NCBI RefSeq assembly: GCF_014042015.1
Contig: NZ_CP059493.1
Coordinates: 1,674,001 to 1,738,000, forward strand
DNA: 64,000 nt
Reading direction: 5' to 3'
DNA from: Actinotalea sp. JY-7876
GTDB taxonomy: Bacteria; Actinomycetota; Actinomycetes; Actinomycetales; Cellulomonadaceae
How positions within the stretch are numbered: the first letter of the stretch is position 1; each line of letters starts with the position of its first letter. Positions 5,815-35,125 of the stretch are shown piece by piece. The notes under the pieces were generated by a model that saw only the letters and a list, made by a program, of their open reading frames with translations, was not told where the DNA came from and made no database searches. Both the position numbers and the translations under genes were made by a program.

Positions 5815-6687
5815 CTAGCCGCGCGATGGCGGCATGAGCTCGCGCCGGTCGGCCACGTGCCACAGCTCGACCGTCTGGACCAGCCAGAACGCCGCGAACT
5901 CCGCGACGAGCAGTGCCTCGACCACGAGTACTGCGTGGGTCCACTCCGGCACGACGACGAACCGGAGCAGGCCCACACCCGCGAGCGTGACGAGCATCGC
6001 GAGGGCGATCACCGCGTACACCCGCGCGTAGCGGGCGCGTCGCGCGACCTGGTCCTGCCAGGCGTTGATCGCCACGACCACGACGATCCCGGCGAACATC
6101 GCGGGCGCCGCCACGTCGTGACCCGACGCCGCGAGCCGGTCCGGGTCGGCGACGGCGACCACCCCGCCCGCGAGGGCCAGGACCCAGGCGAGCGCGCGGA
6201 CGACGTCGGCCGGTCCGCTGCGCTCCCGCACGACGGCGCCGCGGCGCTCCAGCACCGCGGCGACCGCCTGCGCGAGCGCCGCGACCAGCAGGGCCGCCAG
6301 CACGTTGGCGCGCACCCCGTCGACGGCCATGTCCTGCGGTGCCAGCATCGCGGGGCCGCACGACGGCTCGCGGGCGGCCGGGACGAGCGCCACGACGAAC
6401 GCGAGGAACCCCGACAGGTCCAGCAGCGTGTCCTCGAGCGGCGAGCTGCCGCGGTACACGAGCAGGCACGCGCCGACCGCGCACAGCACGCCGACGACGA
6501 CGTCGTGCGCGCCGGTCCAGTAGTACGCGCTGAGCGACGTCTGCCAGCAGCCTGTGGTGAGCGCCTGGGTCGCCACCGCGGTGGCCAGGAGCAGGACGAG
6601 GAGCACGACGGCGAGCCGGATGGCGCGGTAGGTGTCGAGCACCGTCGGGGCGTGGACCCGTCGCGCGCGGACGTCGTCGTCGCTCAC
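5815..6687 (-). CDS. eight-TM membrane protein of unknown function
   Basis: 290 residues with eight hydrophobic helices and short loops. It has the block LSAYYWTGAHDVVVG after TM1 and SPLEDTLLDLSGF before TM3, a pattern I associate with an unnamed actinobacterial membrane family (SISxYYYTxxRD). Start GTG 6687 is chosen because upstream sequence in frame is low-complexity and belongs to the divergent promoter region. It faces the protease gene at 6767, with 79 bp between the starts. No function can be assigned. Confidence 0.75.
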   Translation of the reverse strand: MSDDDVRARRVHAPTVLDTYRAIRLAVVLLVLLLATAVATQALTTGCWQTSLSAYYWTGAHDVVVGVLCAVGACLLVYRGSSPLEDTLLDLSGFLAFVVALVPAAREPSCGPAMLAPQDMAVDGVRANVLAALLVAALAQAVAAVLERRGAVVRERSGPADVVRALAWVLALAGGVVAVADPDRLAASGHDVAAPAMFAGIVVVVAINAWQDQVARRARYARVYAVIALAMLVTLAGVGLLRFVVVPEWTHAVLVVEALLVAEFAAFWLVQTVELWHVADRRELMPPSRG

Positions 6688-6766
6688 GCCCCGAGTGTGC
6701 GTCCGAGCGGCGCGCGCGGCACATCGGGCGTCCACTGGTAGGGCTGCTACTTCCTCAGGGGGCGTC

Positions 6767-7978
6767 ATGTCGCACGAACCGTTCGACCCGAAGCCCGCCG
6801 CCGGCCCGCACCCCCCACCACGGACGACGACCCGCGGGGCGCAACGGTCGCGGCCGTCGTGGTGGGCGCTCGGACTGGCCGCGGTCCTCGCCGCCGTCGT
6901 CGGCGCGCTGGCGGCCCTGGGCCTGAGCCAGGGCGCGGCCGCGTCGGACGACCAGGCGGCCGCCACCGTCACGGCCACGGCGGACGACGACCGAGGCGGC
7001 GGCGCCACCACGGGCGGCGGCGCGCCCGACTGGGTCGCCGTCGCGGAGGAGGTCGAGCCCACCGTCGTCGCGATCGACGTGCGGACGGCGTCGGGCGGCG
7101 GCGCGGGCTCGGGCGTCATGCTCGGGGAGCCGGGCCGCGTCGTGACGAACCACCACGTCGTCGCCGGGGCCGTGGACGGCGGCGTCGTGGTGACCCTGCA
7201 CGACGGCCGCATGTACCAGGCCGAGATCGTCGGCACGGACGAGGCCACCGACCTGGCGGTCCTCCGGCTCGTCCACCCGCCCGACGACCTCCGGGTGGCC
7301 GAGCTCGCAGACTCCGACGCCGTGCGCGTCGGCCAGCCCGTCGCGGCGATCGGCAACCCGCTGGGCCTGAGCAACACGCTGACGACCGGGACGGTCTCGG
7401 CCCTGGACCGGCCGACCACGACGGTGCAGCAGGCCCAGTCGCCGGGGGAGCAGGCGGTGGCCTCGACGACGAACGCGATCCAGGTCGACGCGCCCGTGAA
7501 CCCCGGCAACTCCGGCGGCCCGCTCTTCGACGCGCAGGGGCGCGTGATCGGGATCAACAGCTCGATCGCGTCGCTGCCGACGGACTCCGGCGGGCAGGCC
7601 GGCAGCATCGGCCTGGGCTTCGCCATCCCGAGCGACGTCGTGGACCTGGTCACCTCCCAGCTCGACGAGGACGGCGTCGCGGAGCACGCCTACCTGGGCG
7701 TCGCGCTCGACGACACGGTCGTGGCGGTCGACGACGCCCGGCGGGCGGGCGCCGAGGTGCTGACCGTCGAGCCGGGCAGCCCGGCCGACCAGGCGGGACT
7801 GCGCCCCGGCGACGTCGTGATCGCGATCGACGGCGACCACGTGAGCGGCGCGGAGTCGCTCATCGGGTTCATCCGCCAGCACGCGGCGGGGGACGACGTC
7901 GCGCTGACCGTCGTGCGCGACGGCACGCCGACCGACGTCGACGTCACGCTCGCGGTGCGGGAGGACGCGGAGTCCTGA
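6767..7978 (+). CDS. membrane-anchored HtrA/DegP-like serine protease with PDZ domain
   Basis: 403 residues: short cytoplasmic tail, one TM helix (about 33-53), an acidic linker, an S1C trypsin-like domain with H130 (TNHHVV), D162 (ATDLAVL) and S249 (NPGNSGGPL), then a C-terminal PDZ domain (about 305-395; VEPGSPADQAGLRPGDVVIAIDG). The triad is complete, so an active extracytoplasmic quality-control or regulatory protease is expected. Start ATG 6767 has AGGGGG seven bases upstream. The stop lies 16 bp from the convergent SARP gene end. Confidence 0.93.
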   Translation: MSHEPFDPKPAAGPHPPPRTTTRGAQRSRPSWWALGLAAVLAAVVGALAALGLSQGAAASDDQAAATVTATADDDRGGGATTGGGAPDWVAVAEEVEPTVVAIDVRTASGGGAGSGVMLGEPGRVVTNHHVVAGAVDGGVVVTLHDGRMYQAEIVGTDEATDLAVLRLVHPPDDLRVAELADSDAVRVGQPVAAIGNPLGLSNTLTTGTVSALDRPTTTVQQAQSPGEQAVASTTNAIQVDAPVNPGNSGGPLFDAQGRVIGINSSIASLPTDSGGQAGSIGLGFAIPSDVVDLVTSQLDEDGVAEHAYLGVALDDTVVAVDDARRAGAEVLTVEPGSPADQAGLRPGDVVIAIDGDHVSGAESLIGFIRQHAAGDDVALTVVRDGTPTDVDVTLAVREDAES

Positions 7979-7994
7979 TCGCGTGCCGTGCGGC

Positions 7995-8762
7995 TCATCG
8001 CGTGCGCGGGAGGCCGTTGTGCCCGGCGTGCGGCGCGAGCGCCCGCGCGGCCGGGCCCCCGATGCCGAGGAGGTGCTGCAGGGCCGGGCTCGGCTCGATG
8101 CCGAACTCGGCCAGGACGAGCTTGCCGTACAGGCTGTAGGCGTCGAGCGCGAGCGCGACGTTCCCCTCACGCAGATGGACCTCGATCACGGCCCGGTGCG
8201 CGCTCTCGCGCAGCGGCTCGAGCCGGACGGCGGCGAGCGCGGCGTGCATCGCGGCTCCCGGGACGCCCCGGCGGAGCAGCTCCGAGGCCGCCAGCTCCAG
8301 GGCGTGGACGCGCAGCTGCCGGTCCCGCTCGCGCTCGGCGAGCACCCAGTCGTCGTACCACCCCGGCAGCAGCTCGAGGGCGTGCAGGTGCGGCATCAGC
8401 GCGTCCGTCGGCACACCGGCGGCGTCCCGGATGACGGACATCGCGAGGGCGTGGGCCTGGTGCACGTCCACCACGGCGTGCGGCGCCAGCATGAGAGCGT
8501 CACCAGCGTCGGCCACGAGGTCGGGGCACAGGCGCCTGACCTGCCAGATCGAGGTGCGCAGGTTGCCGTGGGCCCGGTGCTCCGGCAGGTCGGGCCACAG
8601 CTCCCCGGCGAGGAGGGCCCGAGCGGCGCGGCCGCCCAGGGCGACGCGCGCGACGAGGTGCTGCAGCGTCCGGGGCAACCGGATCTCGTCCGCACCGCAC
8701 CACGCCTGGAAGCCGCCGAGCAGGCGCAGCTCGACGGGCGGCGGGGACGCCGGTACGGACAT
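7995..8762 (-). CDS. SARP-type regulator with BTAD domain
   Basis: 255 residues: an N-terminal winged helix of the OmpR/SARP type (VELRLLGGFQAW...LPRTLQHLVARVALGG...LAGELWPD...NLRTSIWQVRR, residues 8-95) and a bacterial transcriptional activator domain (about 100-240; DDWVLAERERDRQLRVHALELAASELL, LEPLRESAHRAVIEVHL, ALDAYSLYGKLVLAEFGIEPSPALQHLL). No NB-ARC or TPR extension. SARPs activate neighbouring clusters by binding direct repeats spaced one or two helical turns. It is divergent from the six-gene operon at 9113-15254, and such a repeat array lies between them, so it is the probable activator of that operon. Start ATG 8762; the frame remains open upstream but is low-complexity there. Confidence 0.88.
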   Translation of the reverse strand: MSVPASPPPVELRLLGGFQAWCGADEIRLPRTLQHLVARVALGGRAARALLAGELWPDLPEHRAHGNLRTSIWQVRRLCPDLVADAGDALMLAPHAVVDVHQAHALAMSVIRDAAGVPTDALMPHLHALELLPGWYDDWVLAERERDRQLRVHALELAASELLRRGVPGAAMHAALAAVRLEPLRESAHRAVIEVHLREGNVALALDAYSLYGKLVLAEFGIEPSPALQHLLGIGGPAARALAPHAGHNGLPRTR

Positions 8763-8955
8763 TCGTAACCGCGCCTCCCCCCGGGGCGGCCTGCTCCACG
8801 TCGGGCGGGTGCCACGTGGCCGCGCCGCCGTGGGCCGATGCCGCAGCGCAGGAGCGGGTGAGGTGCCGCGACCAGTCTTCACCCGGGCGAGCAGCGGGGA
8901 CAAGGGCGCCCCACGGGCACGGTCGGTGGTCGCGTGCACGCGACACCGCCGCGCG

Positions 8956-9025
8956 GACGGCGTCGAGACGCCGGCCCGACGGCGTCCCGACGTGCGTCCC
9001 ACGCGCGCCGGACACGGGACCGACG
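8956..9025. promoter_or_regulatory. 11-bp phased direct repeat array (candidate SARP operator)
   Basis: GACG begins at 8956, 8967, 8978 and 8989, exactly 11 bp apart, and the phase continues with CACG at 9000, GACA at 9011 and GACG at 9022. The first and third units share GACGGCGTC. SARP regulators bind heptamer repeats with 11 or 22 bp spacing. A -10-like TACGTT at 9058-9063 lies downstream, about 50 bp before the first operon start. The remainder of the 350-bp gap 8763-9112 shows no gene. The operator role is inferred. Confidence 0.6.
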
Positions 9026-9112
9026 TCGGGCACACCTCCGCCGGACGCCGCGGCGCATACGTTCGCTGCGCACGGCACCTCCGGCGCCGGCGCCGGGTCG
9101 AGGGAGGCTGGC

Positions 9113-10369
9113 ATGGACCAGGGGCAGGGCACGGACCCCGGCGGGCTGCCGTGGGACGGGGGGCACGGTGCGGCCTGGTCCGACCGGTCCCAGGACGCTG
9201 CGCTCGAGTGGCTCACGGACGACGCCGGCACCGACGAGGCAGAGTTCCTCCCCGCTCTCGCGGCGATCATCCCGGCCGTGATCAGCGCGGCACCCGCGAT
9301 CATCAGCGCGGTCCAGCAGCTGACGAGCCGACCCCGGCCGGCCGCGCCGCCCGCCGCCGCGCCGGCCCCGGCCCCACCGGTCGCGGCACCCCGGCCAGCC
9401 GCCCCGCCGCGTCCGGCTCCCGCACCCGTCCTCCGGCCGGTCGCGCCCGCGCCGGCAGCGGTCCGGCCGGCCCTCGGTGCGCCGGTCACGGCGCCGCGTC
9501 CCGCCGCCGCACCCGGCGCCCCGGCAGCTCCGCCGCCGAGCGGAGGGCCCCCGACGACAGGTCCGGCGCCCGCGGGAGCGCTCGACCTGCTCCAGCAGCT
9601 CGCCGCCCTCCTGCCGCGGATCGCGGACCTCGTGAGCCGGCCGGAGGCCCGGGAGTGGCTGGTGTCCGAGCGGACGTCCGGGACCGGGGGGCGGCACGCG
9701 CCGGAGGCCATGTCCGGGCGCACGTCCGGCCACGCGTCCGTCCACGACGTCTCCGAAGGCTCGTCCGACGACGCGTCGGAGGGCACCACGGGCGGGCGGG
9801 GACCGCCCCCGGCGGCCGCCGGGCCCACGGCCGCCCGGCTCGTCGCCGTGCCCCCCGCCACCGCGCTGAACGTCGGCGTCAGCCCGTGCCCGACCAGTCT
9901 CCTGGTCGCCCGGTTCGGCCGGCCGCGCGAGCTCGTCTCGCACGAGTGCCGCGCGATCACGTCGACGCCCTGGGCGTCGCGGATGGCCACCGGCCAGGTC
10001 GGCGGGGCGCGGGTCAGGGGCCACCGTGCGGCCGTGGCGCTGTTCGCCGAGGCGTTCCGCGCGCTCGAGCGCGAGCACCCGGAGGTCCACTCCCGGCTCG
10101 GCTCGAACGGCATGCTGTGCGTCCGCCACGTCCGGGGGCGCCCGGACCTGCTGAGCAACCACGCGCTCGGCCTCGCGCTCGACGTGACGGTGGACGGTCA
10201 CGTCGAGATCCGCAGCGACGGCCTCGTCCAGCAGGCGTTCCTCACGCTGCACGAGGTGCTCGGCCGCTTCGGCATCTTCTGGGGCGCCGCACTGCGCCCC
10301 CAGGACACCGTGCACTTCGAGGTCGGTGCGGAGGTCGTGCACCGATGGCTCGACGAAGGGACCTTCTGA
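9113..10369 (+). CDS. M15-like peptidase with acidic N-terminal module
   Basis: 418 residues. Residues 20-70 are acidic then hydrophobic (LEWLTDD, EFLPALAAIIPAVISAAPAI), resembling the starts of two other proteins in this operon. A Pro/Ala linker follows (about 72-155), then a helical and Ser/Thr-rich segment. The C-terminal 170 residues look like an M15 (VanY/D-Ala-D-Ala carboxypeptidase-like) zinc domain: SNHALGLALD (H350, D357) and a closing VHFEV (H401, E403). No signal peptide is visible, odd for a peptidoglycan enzyme. Start ATG 9113 has AGGGAGG upstream. First gene of a six-gene operon; its stop overlaps the next start by one base. Confidence 0.75.
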   Translation: MDQGQGTDPGGLPWDGGHGAAWSDRSQDAALEWLTDDAGTDEAEFLPALAAIIPAVISAAPAIISAVQQLTSRPRPAAPPAAAPAPAPPVAAPRPAAPPRPAPAPVLRPVAPAPAAVRPALGAPVTAPRPAAAPGAPAAPPPSGGPPTTGPAPAGALDLLQQLAALLPRIADLVSRPEAREWLVSERTSGTGGRHAPEAMSGRTSGHASVHDVSEGSSDDASEGTTGGRGPPPAAAGPTAARLVAVPPATALNVGVSPCPTSLLVARFGRPRELVSHECRAITSTPWASRMATGQVGGARVRGHRAAVALFAEAFRALEREHPEVHSRLGSNGMLCVRHVRGRPDLLSNHALGLALDVTVDGHVEIRSDGLVQQAFLTLHEVLGRFGIFWGAALRPQDTVHFEVGAEVVHRWLDEGTF

Positions 10370-10845
10370 TGCCCGCCGACCGGGACCTCGTCCTCCAGCT
10401 GGCCGCGCAGCGCGCCGGCCTCACCGAGGGCCAGCTCGACGCCCTGCGGCGCCGCGACTGGGCCGCGCTCCTCGCCGAACGGACCGGACGCGATGGGGCG
10501 GCGGGCGCCGTTGCCGACGTGAGCGGGCCCGACGACCCCCCGGGCGACGAGGACGTGGGCGCCGTCCTCGAGCGCGTCGCCGGCCGGCTCGCGGTCGTCC
10601 GCGGCCAGCGCGACGCGGCCGTGCAGCTCCTCCGTCAGCTCGCGGCGCGTCTGGGCTGCTGCCAGCGCTGCTGGGGGACCGACCCGACGTGCAGCACCTG
10701 TGCCGGGGCGGGTTCTCCCGGCCACTTCCGGCCCGACCCCCAGCTCGCGGCGTGGATCGCGCCCGCGCTCGCCCGCCTCGACCCCGCACCGCCACCGCAG
10801 GACCAGGCAGCGGCACCCGCCGCTGGCACCGACGAGTGGGTCTAG
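10369..10845 (+). CDS. small zinc-ribbon protein
   Basis: 158 residues. N-terminal half is helical and charged; about residues 105-122 carry a cysteine cluster CCQRCWG...CSTCAGAG, two CxxC pairs with the G-x-G tail of DnaJ-type zinc repeats, so one zinc is likely bound. Start ATG 10369 shares its A with the upstream stop (TGATG), so it is translationally coupled to the M15-like gene. It may be an assembly factor or chaperone-like partner for its operon neighbours; that is inference. I do not recognise the family. Confidence 0.68.
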   Translation: MPADRDLVLQLAAQRAGLTEGQLDALRRRDWAALLAERTGRDGAAGAVADVSGPDDPPGDEDVGAVLERVAGRLAVVRGQRDAAVQLLRQLAARLGCCQRCWGTDPTCSTCAGAGSPGHFRPDPQLAAWIAPALARLDPAPPPQDQAAAPAAGTDEWV

Positions 10846-10878
10846 CGCCCACCGGCACGGCCAACCGAGGAGACAGAG

Positions 10879-11640
10879 ATGACCGCACTCGACGACCTTC
10901 TGGACGAGTCGGAGATGTTCGACGAGTCCGAGACCCTGCCGGACTGGGACGAGGGGGCCGAGTTCATCCCCGGCCTCGGCGCCCTCGTCCCGCAGCTCGG
11001 GTTCCTGGACCCCATCGGGGCCGGGATCAAGGCCGTGGGCAACGCGCTGACGCCGCCCGCCCGTCCGGCGGCACCCCGCGTGTCCGTGGCGCCCTCGCGC
11101 GGCGTCAACAGCGCGACGGTGCAGACGCCGCGCGGGCAGGCGCAGGTCCAGCTCCAGACGCCGATGGTCCACAAGGACGAGTTCAACGCCGCCGTCGGGC
11201 GCCTCCAGGCGGTGATCAACGCGGACTCGACGCGGATCAACACCCTGCAGAAGGACCTGACGACGCTCGGCGCCCGCGTCGGCACGGTCGTCGGCGAGAC
11301 CCAGGGCGCGATCGCCAAGCAGCGCACGGAGCAGCAGGCCGCGCTGCGCAAGCTGCGCTTCGAGACGCAGGCCGCCCTGCGCAAGATCAAGGCGGACCAG
11401 CAGCAGCAGCAGATGATGAGCATGGTCATGGGACTGATGCAGCAGCAGCAGCTCACCACCCGGTTCGAGGCCCATACCCACGCGGCCGGGGGCGCGGACA
11501 CGAGCGTGCCCAAGAACGCCGACGGCGACGACAACAGCATGCTGCCGCTGCTGTTCATGATGATGCCGTCCGGCGGCTCCGGCGGTGACAGCTCGATGAC
11601 CATGATGATGATGGCGATGGCCATGTCCGGGGGGTTCTGA
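10879..11640 (+). CDS. acidic coiled-coil protein with Met/Gln-rich C-terminus
   Basis: 253 residues, family not recognised. Residues 4-28 are acidic (DDLLDESEMFDESETL), followed by EFIPGLGALVPQLGFLDPIGAGIKAVG, comparable to EFLPALAAIIP of the first operon protein. Residues about 95-175 form a long heptad-rich helix (VHKDEFNAAVGRLQAVINADSTRINTL onward), ending in a poly-Gln patch. The tail is methionine-rich (MMSMVMGLM, LLFMMMP, MTMMMMAMAM). No signal peptide or clear TM helix. A structural or scaffold role is plausible, with the coil driving oligomerisation. SD-like GGAGACAGAG precedes ATG 10879; it lies one base before the next gene. Confidence 0.65.
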   Translation: MTALDDLLDESEMFDESETLPDWDEGAEFIPGLGALVPQLGFLDPIGAGIKAVGNALTPPARPAAPRVSVAPSRGVNSATVQTPRGQAQVQLQTPMVHKDEFNAAVGRLQAVINADSTRINTLQKDLTTLGARVGTVVGETQGAIAKQRTEQQAALRKLRFETQAALRKIKADQQQQQMMSMVMGLMQQQQLTTRFEAHTHAAGGADTSVPKNADGDDNSMLPLLFMMMPSGGSGGDSSMTMMMMAMAMSGGF

Positions 11641-11641
11641 C

Positions 11642-12115
11642 ATGAGCAACGTGCTGCCGTTCGTGGCGCTGATGTCCGTGCCCAAGAACCGGCGTCGGCG
11701 CCTCATGCCGATCGTCCTGCCCGCGGTCGCGGGCCTGCCGGCCGCGCAGGCCGGCGCGCTCGCGGTCGTCTCCGCCGACGGCGTGGCGCGGCGCGAGGGC
11801 GCGCTCGCGAGCGCGGAGGCGGTCACCGCGGTCACCGCGGTCCTGACCACCGCCGTCGACAAGGGCGCCGTCCTCACCGCGGAGGACCTCGCGCACATCC
11901 CGCTCGCCCGGCAGGTCGTGGCCGCCGACCCGGACATCCTCGCGACCTCCTCGCTCTCGGGCGTCTCGCGGGCCGAGCTGCAGCGAGCGGCCGCGGTCAT
12001 CCAGGCGGCGCTGGACGCGGACGGCGACGGCAAGCCGGCCGGGGGCGCGTCGTCCGGCGCGAAGGGCGCGACGTCGCCACCGCAGGGTGGAGGTGCCGGC
12101 GGGAGCAAGGCCTGA
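11642..12115 (+). CDS. small Ala-rich protein of unknown function
   Basis: 157 residues, not recognised. A short hydrophobic start (NVLPFVALMSV) is followed by KNRRRR and LMPIVLPAVAGLPAAQAGALAVV. Then comes a helical region with an AVTAVTAV repeat, and a Gly/Ser/Lys-rich disordered tail (GKPAGGASSGAKG). The basic patch after a hydrophobic stretch is the reverse of a Sec signal, so I do not call secretion. Starts one base after the previous stop, so it is certainly in the operon. Confidence 0.6.
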   Translation: MSNVLPFVALMSVPKNRRRRLMPIVLPAVAGLPAAQAGALAVVSADGVARREGALASAEAVTAVTAVLTTAVDKGAVLTAEDLAHIPLARQVVAADPDILATSSLSGVSRAELQRAAAVIQAALDADGDGKPAGGASSGAKGATSPPQGGGAGGSKA

Positions 12116-12137
12116 GGCCGGGGAGAGGCAGGCGATC

Positions 12138-13952
12138 ATGGGCGGCCCGGGCCTCGACCTCGATCTCGACCCCCACCTGCGCCAGCTCCTGCTGGAGGAG
12201 GCGGAGCGGGAGCCGGTGGTGCGCCGTCGCCGCGTCGGCGTCATCGCGCGGCTCCGCGGGGCGCAGGTCGAGGTCCCGGGTCTGGACGTCGTGGTGCGGG
12301 CCGGGACGGTGGTGACCGGCCGCACCGACGTGGCGGCGCTGCCGGCCCTGCGCCGGCACCCCGACGTGCTGAGCCTCAAGCGCACCCATCGGTACCTGCC
12401 CCACGACGCCGTCACCGTGCCCGGTGCCACGGTCGCGGACCGGCCCGGCGACCGCGACGCCCGGGAGCCCGCCGCGGCCGACCGCCCGTGGACCGGGCGT
12501 GGCGTCGTCGTCGGGATGCTCGACTGGGGGTTCGACCCGGCGCACGTCGACCTGCTCGACGCCGACGGGCGCAGCCGGTTCCTGGCCCTGTGGGACCAGC
12601 GGGGCGGTCGCACGCCCCTGAGCCCGGCCGCCTACGGGTACGGCCGCGTGCTGGACGCGGCGGCCCTCGACGCCGCGCTCGCGACGCCCGACCCGTATGC
12701 GGCGCTCGGGTACGACCCCGCCGACGTCGACCCGTTCGGGCAGGGCACCCACGGCACCCACACCCTGGGGATCGCGTGCGGCACGGGGCGCTCGGGAGCG
12801 CCGCGGGGCCTGGCGCCCGACGCGGCGATCCTGGCCGTGCACCTGCGCGGTGACGACACCGCCCCGCACGACACGCTCGGCGACTCCGTCCGCATCCTCG
12901 AGGGCGTCGACTGGGTCTTCCGGACGGCGGGGGACCGGCCGGTCGTGCTCAACATGAGCCTGGGGCGCTGCGGTGGCCCGCACGACGCGTCGCCGCTGGT
13001 CGTGCGGGCGCTCGACACGATGCTCGAGGTCCCGGGCCGGCAGATCGTCTGCTCGGCCGGCAACTACTACGCGACGGGCCAGCACACCAGCGCCCAGCTG
13101 CGGGAGGGCGTCCCGGTCACGTGGGGATGGCACGTCGAGGCTCCCCTGGTCGACGACGCCGAGCTCGAGATCTGGTACCCGGCCGCCGACGAGGTCACGG
13201 TCGAGCTCCTGGCGCCGGGTGGCGCCGTCGTGCGGCTCGCGGCGGGGGAGGCGCGCGTGCTGCGCGACGACGGGCGCGTGGTGGTCTCCGGCTTCCACCG
13301 GCGGGCGGACCCCGCCACCGGGGACGGCGTGGTCGACCTGTTCCTGTGGCCCGGGGCGCCCGCCGGGACCTGGCGGGTGCGCCTCCTGCCGGACCGGGTG
13401 CAGGACGGTGAGGTCCACGGCTGGATCGAGCGGGTGCACCGCGGCCGCCAGAGCCGCTTCACCGACCCGGACCCGCTCTTCACCACCAACACCCTGTGCA
13501 ACGGCAGGCGCACCCTCGCGGTCGCGGCGTACGACCACCGGGCGCCGGTGCCGGTCCCCGGTGCGTTCAGCAGCGCCGGTCCGGCCCGGGACCTGCACCC
13601 GAAGCCCGACCTCGCCGCGCCCGGCGTGGCGATCACCGCCGCGCGCTCGGCCGTGCTGCTCAACGGGCGCCGGGAGCGGGACGGCACCACGACCATGACC
13701 GGGACGAGCATGGCCGCCCCGCACGTCAGTGCCGCGGTCGCCGTGCTGTTCGAGGCCGCGGGGCGGCCCCTGGCCGCGGCGGAGGTGGGGGACCTGCTGC
13801 GCTCGACCGCGCGTCCCTGCCCGCTGGGGACCGACCGCGTCGGACGCGGCCTTCTCGACGTCGACGCCGCGCTGGCGGCGTTGGCCGCACGCCCCGGGAC
13901 GCCGGTGACGCCGGCCGGTGGCCCGGCGACCGACGACGGACGGACGAGGTGA
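12138..13952 (+). CDS. subtilisin-family (S8) serine peptidase without signal peptide
   Basis: 604 residues. The subtilase triad is complete: D129 (VGMLDWGFDP), H205 (GQGTHGTHTLGIACG) and S524 (GTSMAAPH), with oxyanion Asn in CSAGNYY. Residues 1-110 resemble an inhibitor-type propeptide (charged, LKRTHRYLP). Between N and S lies an insertion of about 200 residues with beta-rich character (EIWYPAADEVTVELLAPGG...VVDLFLWPGAPAGTWRVRLLPD), like a jelly-roll domain inserted in the catalytic fold. There is no N-terminal signal peptide, unusual for this class. Fourth of the closely packed genes after the M15-like start; GAGAGG precedes ATG 12138 and the next gene starts 6 bp after its stop. Confidence 0.85.
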   Translation: MGGPGLDLDLDPHLRQLLLEEAEREPVVRRRRVGVIARLRGAQVEVPGLDVVVRAGTVVTGRTDVAALPALRRHPDVLSLKRTHRYLPHDAVTVPGATVADRPGDRDAREPAAADRPWTGRGVVVGMLDWGFDPAHVDLLDADGRSRFLALWDQRGGRTPLSPAAYGYGRVLDAAALDAALATPDPYAALGYDPADVDPFGQGTHGTHTLGIACGTGRSGAPRGLAPDAAILAVHLRGDDTAPHDTLGDSVRILEGVDWVFRTAGDRPVVLNMSLGRCGGPHDASPLVVRALDTMLEVPGRQIVCSAGNYYATGQHTSAQLREGVPVTWGWHVEAPLVDDAELEIWYPAADEVTVELLAPGGAVVRLAAGEARVLRDDGRVVVSGFHRRADPATGDGVVDLFLWPGAPAGTWRVRLLPDRVQDGEVHGWIERVHRGRQSRFTDPDPLFTTNTLCNGRRTLAVAAYDHRAPVPVPGAFSSAGPARDLHPKPDLAAPGVAITAARSAVLLNGRRERDGTTTMTGTSMAAPHVSAAVAVLFEAAGRPLAAAEVGDLLRSTARPCPLGTDRVGRGLLDVDAALAALAARPGTPVTPAGGPATDDGRTR

Positions 13953-13958
13953 GGGACG

Positions 13959-15254
13959 ATGGACGACGACCTGCTGACCGGGTACTCCGAGGACGCCGCG
14001 GTCGCGTGGCTGACCGACGGCGAGTCCACCGAGGACGCGAGCGCGTGGCCCCCGGACGGCGAGTCCTCCGACGCCGCCGCCGCGTGGCTCGTCGGTGAGG
14101 GTGCCGAGGCCCGACCCCCGACCGGGGCGGCCGTCGCCGCGCTGCGCGTCGTCCCGCCGCTCCTCGAGGCGATGCCCGCGCTCCTGGAGGCGCTCGTCCG
14201 GGTCACCGGACCGGGCACCGCGGAGGCGCCCGACCCGGACGGGTCCGACACGGGTGGCTGGGAGCCTGGGCCGGCGCACCTCACGGAGCACCTCGAGCCC
14301 GACGACGGCGCCTCGCCGGAGGTCGGGTTCATCGCGCTCGCGGGCGTGCTGATCCCGGCGGCGGAGCTCGGGCTCGGGGTGTTCGACCGGCTCCAGCAGC
14401 ACGTGTTCAACGGCTCGTTCTCCGTGACCTCCACGCCCGCGACGTACGTGCACAACCCGAGCCCGACGGGCCTGGCGATCCAGCGTCGCTCGTTCCGGTT
14501 CCCGATCACCGCGCACCACCCGAGGGTCGGCATCGACACCCAGACCTTCTGGTTCGACGTGGCGCTCGAGTACGACGGCTTCAACGTGCGGCGGGTCGCG
14601 GTGTCGGAGGACCGCGGCAGCTCGAGCACGCTGGTCTCGTCGAGCTTCTCGGTCTCCTTCACCCCGTCCGCCTACACCGCGGCGAACGAGCCGGTGTCCG
14701 CGGTGGCCTTCACGATCGGCGGCCGGTGGGACCCCGTCGGCAGCGGCGACGAGAGCTTCACCGGACGGTTCGTCGTCGACGCCGCGGGCAACCTCACCGG
14801 GCTGCAGGTCGCCTCCTCGCAGAGCTGGGTCCGCCATGGCGCGCTGACGTACTCGGGTGGGGGCCCCGTCCCGCGGCCCACGACCGCCGTGCAGGCGACG
14901 ACCGTGCACTTCGACCCGTCGGGGAGCTTCGCCCTCACCCAGGAGAAGATCCGCCACCTGCACACCTGGTACACCGGGCTCCCGGGCGCCGTGCAGGCGG
15001 AGATCCGTCGCGGCGTGCAGCCCGTCCGCCTCACCGGCCGGGCGTCGACGACCGGCACCGTGCAGCAGAACCAGGAGCTCGCCCGCAAGCGCGCCGACGC
15101 GGTGGCCCGGGTGCTGCGGGACCTGGCCGGCACGTCGGCCCGCGTCGACGTGGAGGTGCACGGCGAGCTCGGGGCGCGGACGCCCGACGCGCAGGAGGTG
15201 CCCGCGGAGCGGCGCGTCGACGTGCGGTGCGAGTACCAGGTCTACCAGCTCTGA
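13959..15254 (+). CDS. acidic-repeat protein with C-terminal OmpA-like domain
   Basis: 431 residues. The N-terminus carries acidic repeats (DAAVAWLTDGE, ASAWPPDGE, DAAAAWLVGEG, residues 12-48), then helical segments and EVGFIALAGVLIPAAELG (121-137), matching the plan of two other operon proteins. Residues about 145-300 are beta-rich with Ser/Thr-rich strands. The last 120 residues resemble an OmpA/MotB peptidoglycan-binding fold (VHFDPSGS, LTGRASTTGT, NQELARKRADAVARVLRDLAG, RRVDV). No signal peptide or TM anchor is obvious. Last gene of the SARP-linked operon; its 3' end overlaps convergent helR by 13 bp. Confidence 0.72.
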   Translation: MDDDLLTGYSEDAAVAWLTDGESTEDASAWPPDGESSDAAAAWLVGEGAEARPPTGAAVAALRVVPPLLEAMPALLEALVRVTGPGTAEAPDPDGSDTGGWEPGPAHLTEHLEPDDGASPEVGFIALAGVLIPAAELGLGVFDRLQQHVFNGSFSVTSTPATYVHNPSPTGLAIQRRSFRFPITAHHPRVGIDTQTFWFDVALEYDGFNVRRVAVSEDRGSSSTLVSSSFSVSFTPSAYTAANEPVSAVAFTIGGRWDPVGSGDESFTGRFVVDAAGNLTGLQVASSQSWVRHGALTYSGGGPVPRPTTAVQATTVHFDPSGSFALTQEKIRHLHTWYTGLPGAVQAEIRRGVQPVRLTGRASTTGTVQQNQELARKRADAVARVLRDLAGTSARVDVEVHGELGARTPDAQEVPAERRVDVRCEYQVYQL

Positions 15255-34240: not shown

Positions 34241-35125
34241 TCACCGCTCGGCGTGTCGGGCTCCGGGGGACGGGACGACGGCGGGGTCGGGTGCGGGAGC
34301 GGCGCGGCGCGGCGCGAACGCCGCCCGCGCCGCGGTGCGGCGCAGCGCGACCAGCGTGGGCCGTGCGACGAGGGCCAGCGCGAGCGCCGTCGTCAGGGCG
34401 CGTCCCACGTCCCAGCCCAGGGAGGTGGCGAGCGTGAAGAGCCCGAACCGGCGCAGGTTCTCCAGCACGGGGTCGCCCGCGACGAAGGAGATCCCCGTGC
34501 CGGTCCCGACGCCGAACGGCCAGAAGGACAGGTTCATCGCGAGGCCGAAGGCGAACGCCGCGACGGCGCCGTACGCGACCAGCAGGGCGATCTCGCGCGC
34601 GCCCCGCACGCGCCGGGGCAGCAGCCCGGCGCCGAGCCCGATCCACGAGGCCCCGAGCATCTGGAACGGCATCCACGGCCCGACCCCGCCGGTCAGCAGC
34701 GCCGAGGCGAGGATCGTCGTGGAGCCGAGCGCGAAGCCGAAGCCGGGCCCGAAGACGCGCCCGCCCAGCACGATGACGACGAACACCAGCTCGACGCCGG
34801 CGGTGCCGGCCGAGAGCGGCCGCAGCACGGAGCCCACCGCCGACAGCAGCCCCAGCACCGCGACGGCCTTGACGTCGAGCCCGCCCTCGCTGAGGGCCAC
34901 GAGCACGACGGCGACCACCGCCACGAGCACCACCGCCAGGACGAGCGGGGCGTCGGTGCTGTGCTCGAGCCCGCTGCCGGGCTGCAGCACGAGCGGCCAG
35001 CCGAACGCGAGGATCCCGGCGAGCGTGGCCAGCCCCAGCGCGAGGCGGGTGCGGGGCCCGAGCGGCAGCGCGGCCACGTCGACCGCGGGCGCGGCGCGGC
35101 GCACCGCGGCGGTCGGCGCGCTCAC
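34241..35125 (-). CDS. ECF transporter S component (probably cobalamin)
   Basis: 294 residues with about six to eight hydrophobic helices. It has the substrate-binding-subunit plan of ECF importers: RVFGPGFGFALGSTTILASALLTGGVGPWMPFQMLGASWIGLGAGLLPRR is typical of larger S components in actinobacteria. Its start overlaps the ATPase stop, so it is the last gene of the riboswitch-led operon. Substrate is inferred as cobalamin from the riboswitch upstream and from neighbouring B12 genes, as for CbrT-type S components. The sequence alone does not prove the substrate. Confidence 0.85.
   Translation of the reverse strand: MSAPTAAVRRAAPAVDVAALPLGPRTRLALGLATLAGILAFGWPLVLQPGSGLEHSTDAPLVLAVVLVAVVAVVLVALSEGGLDVKAVAVLGLLSAVGSVLRPLSAGTAGVELVFVVIVLGGRVFGPGFGFALGSTTILASALLTGGVGPWMPFQMLGASWIGLGAGLLPRRVRGAREIALLVAYGAVAAFAFGLAMNLSFWPFGVGTGTGISFVAGDPVLENLRRFGLFTLATSLGWDVGRALTTALALALVARPTLVALRRTAARAAFAPRRAAPAPDPAVVPSPGARHAER

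Follow-up and report, generated by a model that had tools for sequence, protein, structure and literature searches.

Several described systems come close to the locus reported here. The Csp subtilases of spore-forming Clostridia (CspB, CspBA, and CspC) are S8 proteases without a signal peptide. An S8 protease serves a multi-gene protein system in the cases of the type VII mycosin and of PatA/LanP, while the anti-phage system IetAS has an S8 protease in a small operon. In SARP antibiotic clusters, a BTAD regulator is found beside an operator of 11-bp direct repeats; PMC5930380 describes the classical SARP site as a repeat unit of 11 bp made up of a heptamer and a 4-nt spacer. The peptidase conflict systems of Kaur et al. 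2020 combine a protease with exchangeable, wall-targeting effectors (PMC7159879). I found a locus resembling each of these in part in Actinotalea sp. JY-7876. Six packed genes and a divergent SARP-type regulator gene lie at positions 7995 to 15254 of a 64,000-nucleotide stretch (hereafter the window) of contig NZ_CP059493.1, positions 1,674,001 to 1,738,000. The locus is tentatively read, at a probability of roughly 35%, as a horizontally moving, SARP-switched effector cassette with protease-triggered assembly.

The six open reading frames (ORFs) are collinear on the + strand. They encode P1, an M15 peptidase protein (9113..10369); B, a zinc-ribbon protein (10369..10845); C, a coiled-coil protein (10879..11640); D, a small Ala-rich protein (11642..12115); a Csp-type subtilase (12138..13952); and P6, a protein with an OmpA-like C-terminus (13959..15254). 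The gaps between them are -1, 33, 1, 22, and 6 bp, and the SARP-type gene (255 aa, 7995..8762) is divergent upstream on the - strand. This layout agrees exactly with the initial annotation, and the identities proposed there for the seven proteins also hold, with Pfam S8, OmpA, M15_4, and BTAD matches above their cut-offs. Unlike the SARP antibiotic clusters, the six genes include no biosynthetic enzyme, and the SARP gene adjoins proteases and scaffold-like proteins; the operator predicted here has nine units, in contrast to the two or three units described for PimR in PMC5930380. The conflict systems differ in their NucA, trypsin, EAD, and STAND NTPase components, none of which was detected in the cassette by Pfam. 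The subtilase has a weak PADLOC match related to IetAS, whereas its NCBIfam IetS score is 15.1 bits against a cut-off of 900, and no ATPase is encoded among the six genes. The scores for mycosin (64.9 bits against 278.75) and PatA (21.6 bits against 421) are likewise too low, and the six genes lack secretion genes and genes for ribosomally synthesized and post-translationally modified peptides (RiPPs). The gene composition thus appears to fit no known system tested. The remark of the initial annotation that it knew of no described system of this composition is in line with narrow searches of the open-licence PMC literature, which returned nothing comparable; this is a weak test, since several terms had to co-occur.

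The subtilase (Pfam S8, 104.5 bits) has an intact catalytic Asp129-His205-Ser524 set plus Asn309, and the catalytic motifs are present in 8/8 cassettes. Its closest solved structure is CspB (4i0w; E = 2e-23, over residues 118-539), and its domain layout is that of the Csp proteases. In contrast to these, it sits among genes for B, C, cargo proteins, and, in other cassettes, a glycine-rich protein A, and it stays below the NCBIfam cut-offs for CspBA (86.5 bits against 1250) and CspC (66.2 against 675). N-termini and membrane anchors were judged by Kyte-Doolittle hydropathy and charge counts throughout this study, and no Sec-type N-terminus was found on the subtilase. The longest possible N-terminal extension is 0 residues in seven of the eight cassettes and 17 residues in the window. 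Thus, the subtilase starts are not misplaced, and in those seven there is no room for a signal peptide. The subtilase is apparently active and located inside the cell.

Is this set of genes conserved? With C as the query (E <= 1e-3), five of 200 genomes of the family were found, namely the window's own, two strong, and two weak matches. All 19 genomes of the genus gave the same result, and among 296 sampled genomes of the phylum the window's own was the sole match. The two relatives with a strong C match, Cellulomonas carbonis (L007) and Actinotalea sp. Marseille-Q4924 (L008), have all seven genes in the same order, so the gene order is beyond chance; scattering of the genes in relatives was looked for and not seen. 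The genes flanking the cassette in the window (P0008 and P0009) are absent from the 10-kb flanks analysed for L007 and L008. An empty insertion site was not found, as P0008 and P0009 do not occur together elsewhere among the matches listed for the 19 genus genomes. In L008, the M15 gene (7893-9352) is split over two frames, which is either a sequencing error or a broken gene.

Searches with the subtilase reached further. It matches 21 plasmid records at E <= 1e-20, and the cassette is present in 3 of the 11 records opened. Genes for A, B, C, D, and S8 are found in Gemmatirosa kalamazoonensis (L010) and on a Cupriavidus oxalaticus plasmid (L009). In Streptomyces canus (L011), the series starts with a BTAD gene in divergent orientation, continues with A, B, C, D, and S8, and ends with an M4 peptidase gene. 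Among 394 genomes sampled from the class (E <= 1e-50), nine matched, including the window's own. Five of the other eight belong to one genus, designated g303 (L031-L034 and L038), and these and a Streptomyces (L035) are of the cassette type, while L036 and L037 have no A, B, C, or D. The g303 order is a LuxR-type regulator gene, a receiver-like gene without a Pfam match, A, B, a third gene, and S8. The cassette occurs in 5/22 genomes of the family that includes g303, and among 199 Streptomyces genomes sampled, the only match was the query's own genome. Finally, the 200 genomes of the window's family gave four subtilase matches, three of them already known and one (G176) in another genus. The latter served as a blind test. 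The G176 region (L157), picked by the subtilase alone, holds A (E = 4.7e-38), B (3.3e-24), and C (2.8e-23), together with a D of the PASTA type. A SARP gene (BTAD, 69.6 bits) lies immediately upstream in the same orientation, and no match to the P1 or OmpA models was found there.

In total, 13 genomes were counted: the window, L007, L008, L157, L009, L010, L011, L035, and the five of g303. L038, whose contig starts within the S8 gene, was counted by kinship, and L034 is cut by the contig end. The count leaves out weak matches, to C in G099 and G050 (E = 2.9e-4 and 9.3e-4) and to B in G497, G393, and G424 (E = 0.003-0.008). B is present in 12/13 cassettes; its model was built from seven of them, and it was found independently of the model in L031-L034 (E = 5e-14 to 5e-17) and in L157. 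A is present in 9/13 (independently in L033, L034, and L157), and C is recognisable in 8/13 (independently in L157). Profile comparison by hhalign joins the C proteins of the window group to the distant ones at a probability of 96% (E = 3e-9). In contrast, the P1 and OmpA models match only the window, L007, and L008 among the cassette loci. Thus, the six-gene set is not the unit that the initial annotation took it for; the recurrent part is A, B, C, and S8. The core, as read from these sequences, consists of B, C, usually a small D, and a Csp-type subtilase, normally preceded by A. In a phylogenetic tree, a branch with support of 100/99 separates 12 cassette subtilases from 12 others, with the warnings that there are long branches among the non-cassette members (L128 and L036) and that composition is uneven. 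In 13 loci surrounding other subtilase relatives, the A, B, C, and D models gave no match at E-values up to 1. The cassette spans Actinomycetota, Pseudomonadota, and Gemmatimonadota, with three copies on plasmids. It is widespread but rare, and its distribution indicates that it is horizontally mobile.

Two other explanations may be assessed at this point. The locus might be a loose island of unrelated genes joined by chance or by mobile elements, with no joint function. D and the cargo do vary, and g303 lacks a recognisable C and D. This idea is nevertheless very improbable in view of the packed same-strand genes with the same order in three phyla, the monophyly of the cassette subtilases, the blind test, and the common operator described below. 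Alternatively, the cassette might encode a developmental or wall-remodelling complex, in which a Csp-like protease would act in dormancy, germination, or envelope maintenance together with the M15 and OmpA-like proteins. The closest solved relatives are indeed Csp germination proteases, and in g303 and Gemmatirosa the cassette follows a gene for a response regulator of the LuxR type. Presence in 3/19 genus genomes and on plasmids ill suits core development, however, and the OmpA-like domain has lost its Asp residue (see below), which makes a developmental role improbable.

The LuxR-type genes of Gemmatirosa (L010:6898-8381) and g303 (L031:6717-7930) are 38% identical and lie directly upstream of the cassette. 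In both loci, a short gene for a receiver-like protein comes next, and these two short genes show no significant similarity to each other (E = 0.26). The Cupriavidus plasmid has a second, partial A copy on the - strand (L009:8796-9344) beside a gene with a peptidoglycan-binding domain, which suggests a duplicated or decayed second cassette. Also beside that cassette is a gene piece (L009:10397-11380) whose match to Pfam SpvB covers the initial 113 of 287 positions and which is apparently truncated.

The regulator gene adjoins five of the 13 cassettes (the window, L007, L008, L011, and L157). The fixed order next to a BTAD gene that the initial annotation proposed to look for was found in L007 and L008, both of which have orthologues of the window's SARP. 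The window's SARP has a BTAD domain (52.5 bits, cut-off 22.1), while its N-terminal part resembles a winged helix by eye only, with no Pfam Trans_reg_C match. It matches the S. canus SARP at 37% and the L157 SARP with a tblastn E-value of 5e-32.

The gap between the SARP and M15 genes contains a predicted SARP operator (8956..9054, + strand) of nine 11-bp units, each starting with [GC]AC. A -10-like element, ATACGTT (9057..9063, + strand), begins 13 bp downstream of where the last unit starts. The score for heptamers spaced by 11 bp is 31 in the window (shuffled mean 9.2), 54 in L007 (20.9), and 49 in L008 (7.8), and none of 300 shuffles reached the observed value in any of the three; the 10-bp and 12-bp phases of the gap gave no signal. 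Twelve other gaps in the window (137-509 bp) score 19 or less. When the whole 64 kb was scanned in overlapping 350-bp windows, 11 of 1273 reached 31, of which six overlap the SARP-M15 gap, four lie in the C coding sequence (11051-11201), and one lies at 34301. The score alone is therefore not unique. The C coding region 11051-11550 even outscores the operator (45 versus 31), probably owing to repetitive coding sequence.

The register of the units was also counted freely, without anchoring on the -10-like element. In the window, 9/9 units start with [GC]AC from 8956, while the next best register has 1/9. In L008, it is 8/9 from 7735 with a next best of 3, and in L007, 6/9, tied with another register. 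The operator register is in 13-bp phase with the gap's only matching -10-like element in the window, L008, and L007 (the tied register in the case of L007). This element is ATACGTT in the window and L008 and CTACGGT in L007, and it lies 56, 57, and 53 nt before the ATG codon in the window, L008, and L007, respectively. Apart from the repeats and the -10-like element, the gaps do not align convincingly between the relatives. The S. canus signal is weak (11, with the best windows of that locus at 12). For L157, a score of 13 was obtained over the 300 bp preceding the SARP gene (control phases: 1 and 3), but coding windows of that locus reach 25.

These elements bear on the gene starts. The ATG at 8762 was taken for the SARP gene; a GTG at 9035 would give a longer ORF of 346 aa, which would cross the operator. 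For M15, the -10-like element upstream supports the start at 9113; for C, D, and P6, the start is supported because the ORF cannot be extended to an earlier start codon. The B frame is very long and open, and its start is based on the orthologues. A consensus scan for promoters and terminators gave a single promoter-like site, inside the C gene, and no terminator. Upstream of the SARP gene, a trypsin-PDZ (HtrA-like) protease gene is found at 6632-7978; its relatives in the genus sit elsewhere, and it seems not to be a cassette member.

P1 has an acidic leader, a hydrophobic segment (residues 49-67, Kyte-Doolittle mean 2.24), a Pro/Ala-rich linker, and a C-terminal M15 domain. The Pfam M15_4 score of 26.2 bits is only just over the cut-off of 25, while the M15 zinc motifs (HxxGxAxD and HxE) appear as HALGLALD...VHFE in 3/3 orthologues. 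P1 occupies the position held by A in other cassettes. B has the pattern CxxCxGx4CxxCxGxG, which I take to be reminiscent of DnaJ zinc modules, with four Cys residues unchanged in seven aligned sequences; the N-terminal part of the Gemmatirosa B is hydrophobic. C consists of an acidic-aromatic N-terminus, a coiled coil, and a hydrophobic, Met/Leu-rich C-terminus. P6 has an acidic N-terminus, a hydrophobic segment (residues 124-142, mean 2.06), a beta-rich middle, and the OmpA-like C-terminus (Pfam OmpA, 33 bits). Its AlphaFold model was poor (pLDDT 44.6) and the best Foldseek E-value was 0.18, and thus no fold was assigned. D starts with MSNVLPFVALMSVPKNRRRRLMPIVLPAVAGLPAAQAGA, in which a basic stretch with a run of arginines precedes a hydrophobic segment (residues 24-42, mean 1.77). 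Its position is held by unrelated proteins in other cassettes, three of which (L009, L035, and L157) have a PASTA domain. No family above the cut-off was found for the window's B, C, and D in Pfam, NCBIfam, PHROGs, or PADLOC, nor for the Cupriavidus A in Pfam.

The first 50 residues of the window's P1, C, and P6 contain 11-14 acidic and 0-1 basic residues, which is the opposite of a Sec signal. The initial annotation saw no signal peptide on any of the proteins and considered that misplaced starts could hide Sec signals. By composition, M15, B, C, the subtilase, and the OmpA-like protein have none, while D is ambiguous on both counts. Its further claim that no membrane anchor is visible does not quite hold, given the strongly hydrophobic segments of P1 and P6. 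The P1 leader was compared with its own genome up to E = 10. The sole other match is C of the same operon (E = 0.40), a resemblance that is suggestive only, and no plasmid match was found.

Acidic N-termini and a SARP operator might also be expected if the locus served to mature a proteinaceous product, for instance a large bacteriocin, with A and C as precursors carrying acidic leaders, the subtilase as a leader peptidase, and the SARP controlling production. Lanthipeptide and cyanobactin pathways do use leader peptidases of the S8 family, and the subtilase has a weak PatA match. That match, as noted above, is far below its cut-off, and there is no exporter or RiPP enzyme among the six genes. 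A and C are large (186-389 aa for those with a clear start), and the varying cargo enzymes would be left without explanation. Maturation of this kind is quite unlikely.

The cargo of the window is the M15 peptidase and the OmpA-like protein, and other enzyme domains replace them in other cassettes. The L035 subtilase runs on into PG_binding_1, amine oxidase, and DUF4056 domains, and the Cupriavidus subtilase into PG_binding_1. Gemmatirosa has a lactamase-fold match under the cut-off, and the C-terminal part of the S8 proteins of L011, L031, and L157 has no Pfam match. Outside the cassettes, subtilase relatives adjoin genes for caspase, CHAT, metallo-beta-lactamase (MBL), phospholipase-D-like, M6, and LodA/GoxA proteins.

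The last observation may fit an intracellular suicide or anti-invader system, in which a sensor-triggered, Csp-like zymogen would free the wall hydrolase and membrane-active C and D to kill its own cell. The protease and the hydrolase are signal-less, there are hydrophobic segments in C, D, P1, and P6, caspase, CHAT, and MBL genes are neighbours of other branches of the subtilase, the PADLOC subtilase and IetS matches exist though weak, and the distribution is patchy and mobile. On the other hand, no sensor, ATPase, or NTPase gene is present in the cassette, SARP control points to a programmed switch-on and not to a system on permanent watch, cargo such as amine oxidase and M4 peptidase is typical of extracellular enzymes, and the IetS score is far under its cut-off. 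Cell suicide is an unlikely explanation.

Five rhizobial plasmid loci (L013, L122, L123, L126, and L127, from Rhizobium, Agrobacterium, and Sinorhizobium) have non-cassette subtilases beside caspase, CHAT, MBL, phospholipase-D-like, S53, and LodA/GoxA genes, and the order S8, small protein, phospholipase-D-like recurs in three of them. A phage origin was rejected, as the subtilase gives three weak phage records and no A, B, or C was found in the best 80 of 85 viral loci retrieved with the S8 profile; a search with P0006 against phage gave no match. A phage or contractile injection system was also rejected, since PHROGs revealed no phage structural families among the cassette proteins. The first four proteins of the window have no PHROGs match, the fifth matches only as a protease, and the sixth only as an OmpA-like unknown.

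In the effector cassette reading, an active SARP would cause the cassette proteins to be made together in the cytoplasm. A or P1, C, and P6 would co-assemble through acidic-aromatic tags and hydrophobic segments, and B may be a zinc-ribbon adaptor or chaperone. The subtilase would be made as a zymogen and cut the leaders, thereby maturing or triggering the assembly. The main parts would be released without Sec, perhaps by lysis, and the enzymes, here the M15 peptidase, would then act on the walls of other cells. The three fates suggested in the initial annotation, namely an unusual export route, lysis, and internal maturation, may each apply. I infer the co-assembly via tags, the proteolytic triggering, the non-Sec release of the main parts, and the action on other cells from the traits described. 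The mechanism may be a variant of proteolytically activated effectors. A fuller version, in which an A/C scaffold and the zinc-ribbon adaptor of an undescribed mobile system collect tagged enzymes, the subtilase triggers or matures a particle that exits by a non-Sec route and attacks neighbours, and a SARP or response regulator is in control, is unlikely as a whole.

The tag was defined as a 25-residue window containing eight or more D/E, three or more F/W/Y, and no more than one K/R. It is present in 16/18 A, P1, C, and OmpA proteins, compared with 0/22 B, D, and S8 proteins and 3/138 flanking genes. The near copies L032 and L033 and the split P1 of L008 were dropped, and the helicase P0009 (12-bp overlap) was left out of the count though it is tagged (4/139 if included). 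With three alternative settings, the tagged share was 14, 18, and 6 of 18, compared with 3, 14, and 3 of 138 flanking genes and 0, 7, and 0 of 22. The L157 A is tagged (DDAWADDAWADDAW), and the Gemmatirosa A carries DAWDDAWDDAWDDAWDE, a repeat of the same type in a different phylum.

Several points weigh against this reading. The enrichment of the tag (Fisher, 5e-17) is overstated because the rows are related, and the thresholds were picked after the sequences had been read. The tag is missed by the window's own P6 and by the Cupriavidus C, and the L157 C has no tag while the L157 SARP passes in two windows. A common leader of P1 and P6 was rejected: the alignment is significant in the window only (reached by 1/2000 shuffles, compared with 59/2000 in L007 and 337/2000 in L008). 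P1 was also rejected as a form of A (hhalign, 2.4%), and D as a single family (0.1% between the window group and the others). The N-terminus of D could be a signal or membrane segment, and D could then be membrane-bound or exported. Canonical peptidoglycan-binding OmpA domains read GHTD, and the Asp binds the diamino acid of peptidoglycan. The P6 domain reads GRAS without this Asp in 3/3 orthologues, so the peptidoglycan-binding role originally ascribed to it is not borne out. The third g303 gene is not recognisably related to C, g303 has no recognisable D either, and no SARP was identified beside 8/13 cassettes.

The locus offers handles in the form of a predicted operator, a protease beside its predicted substrates, and a tag that is testable for recruitment. 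A conserved module in three phyla, with an internal protease, swappable cargo of the exoenzyme type, and no known export route, would indicate an unrecognised form of enzyme deployment.

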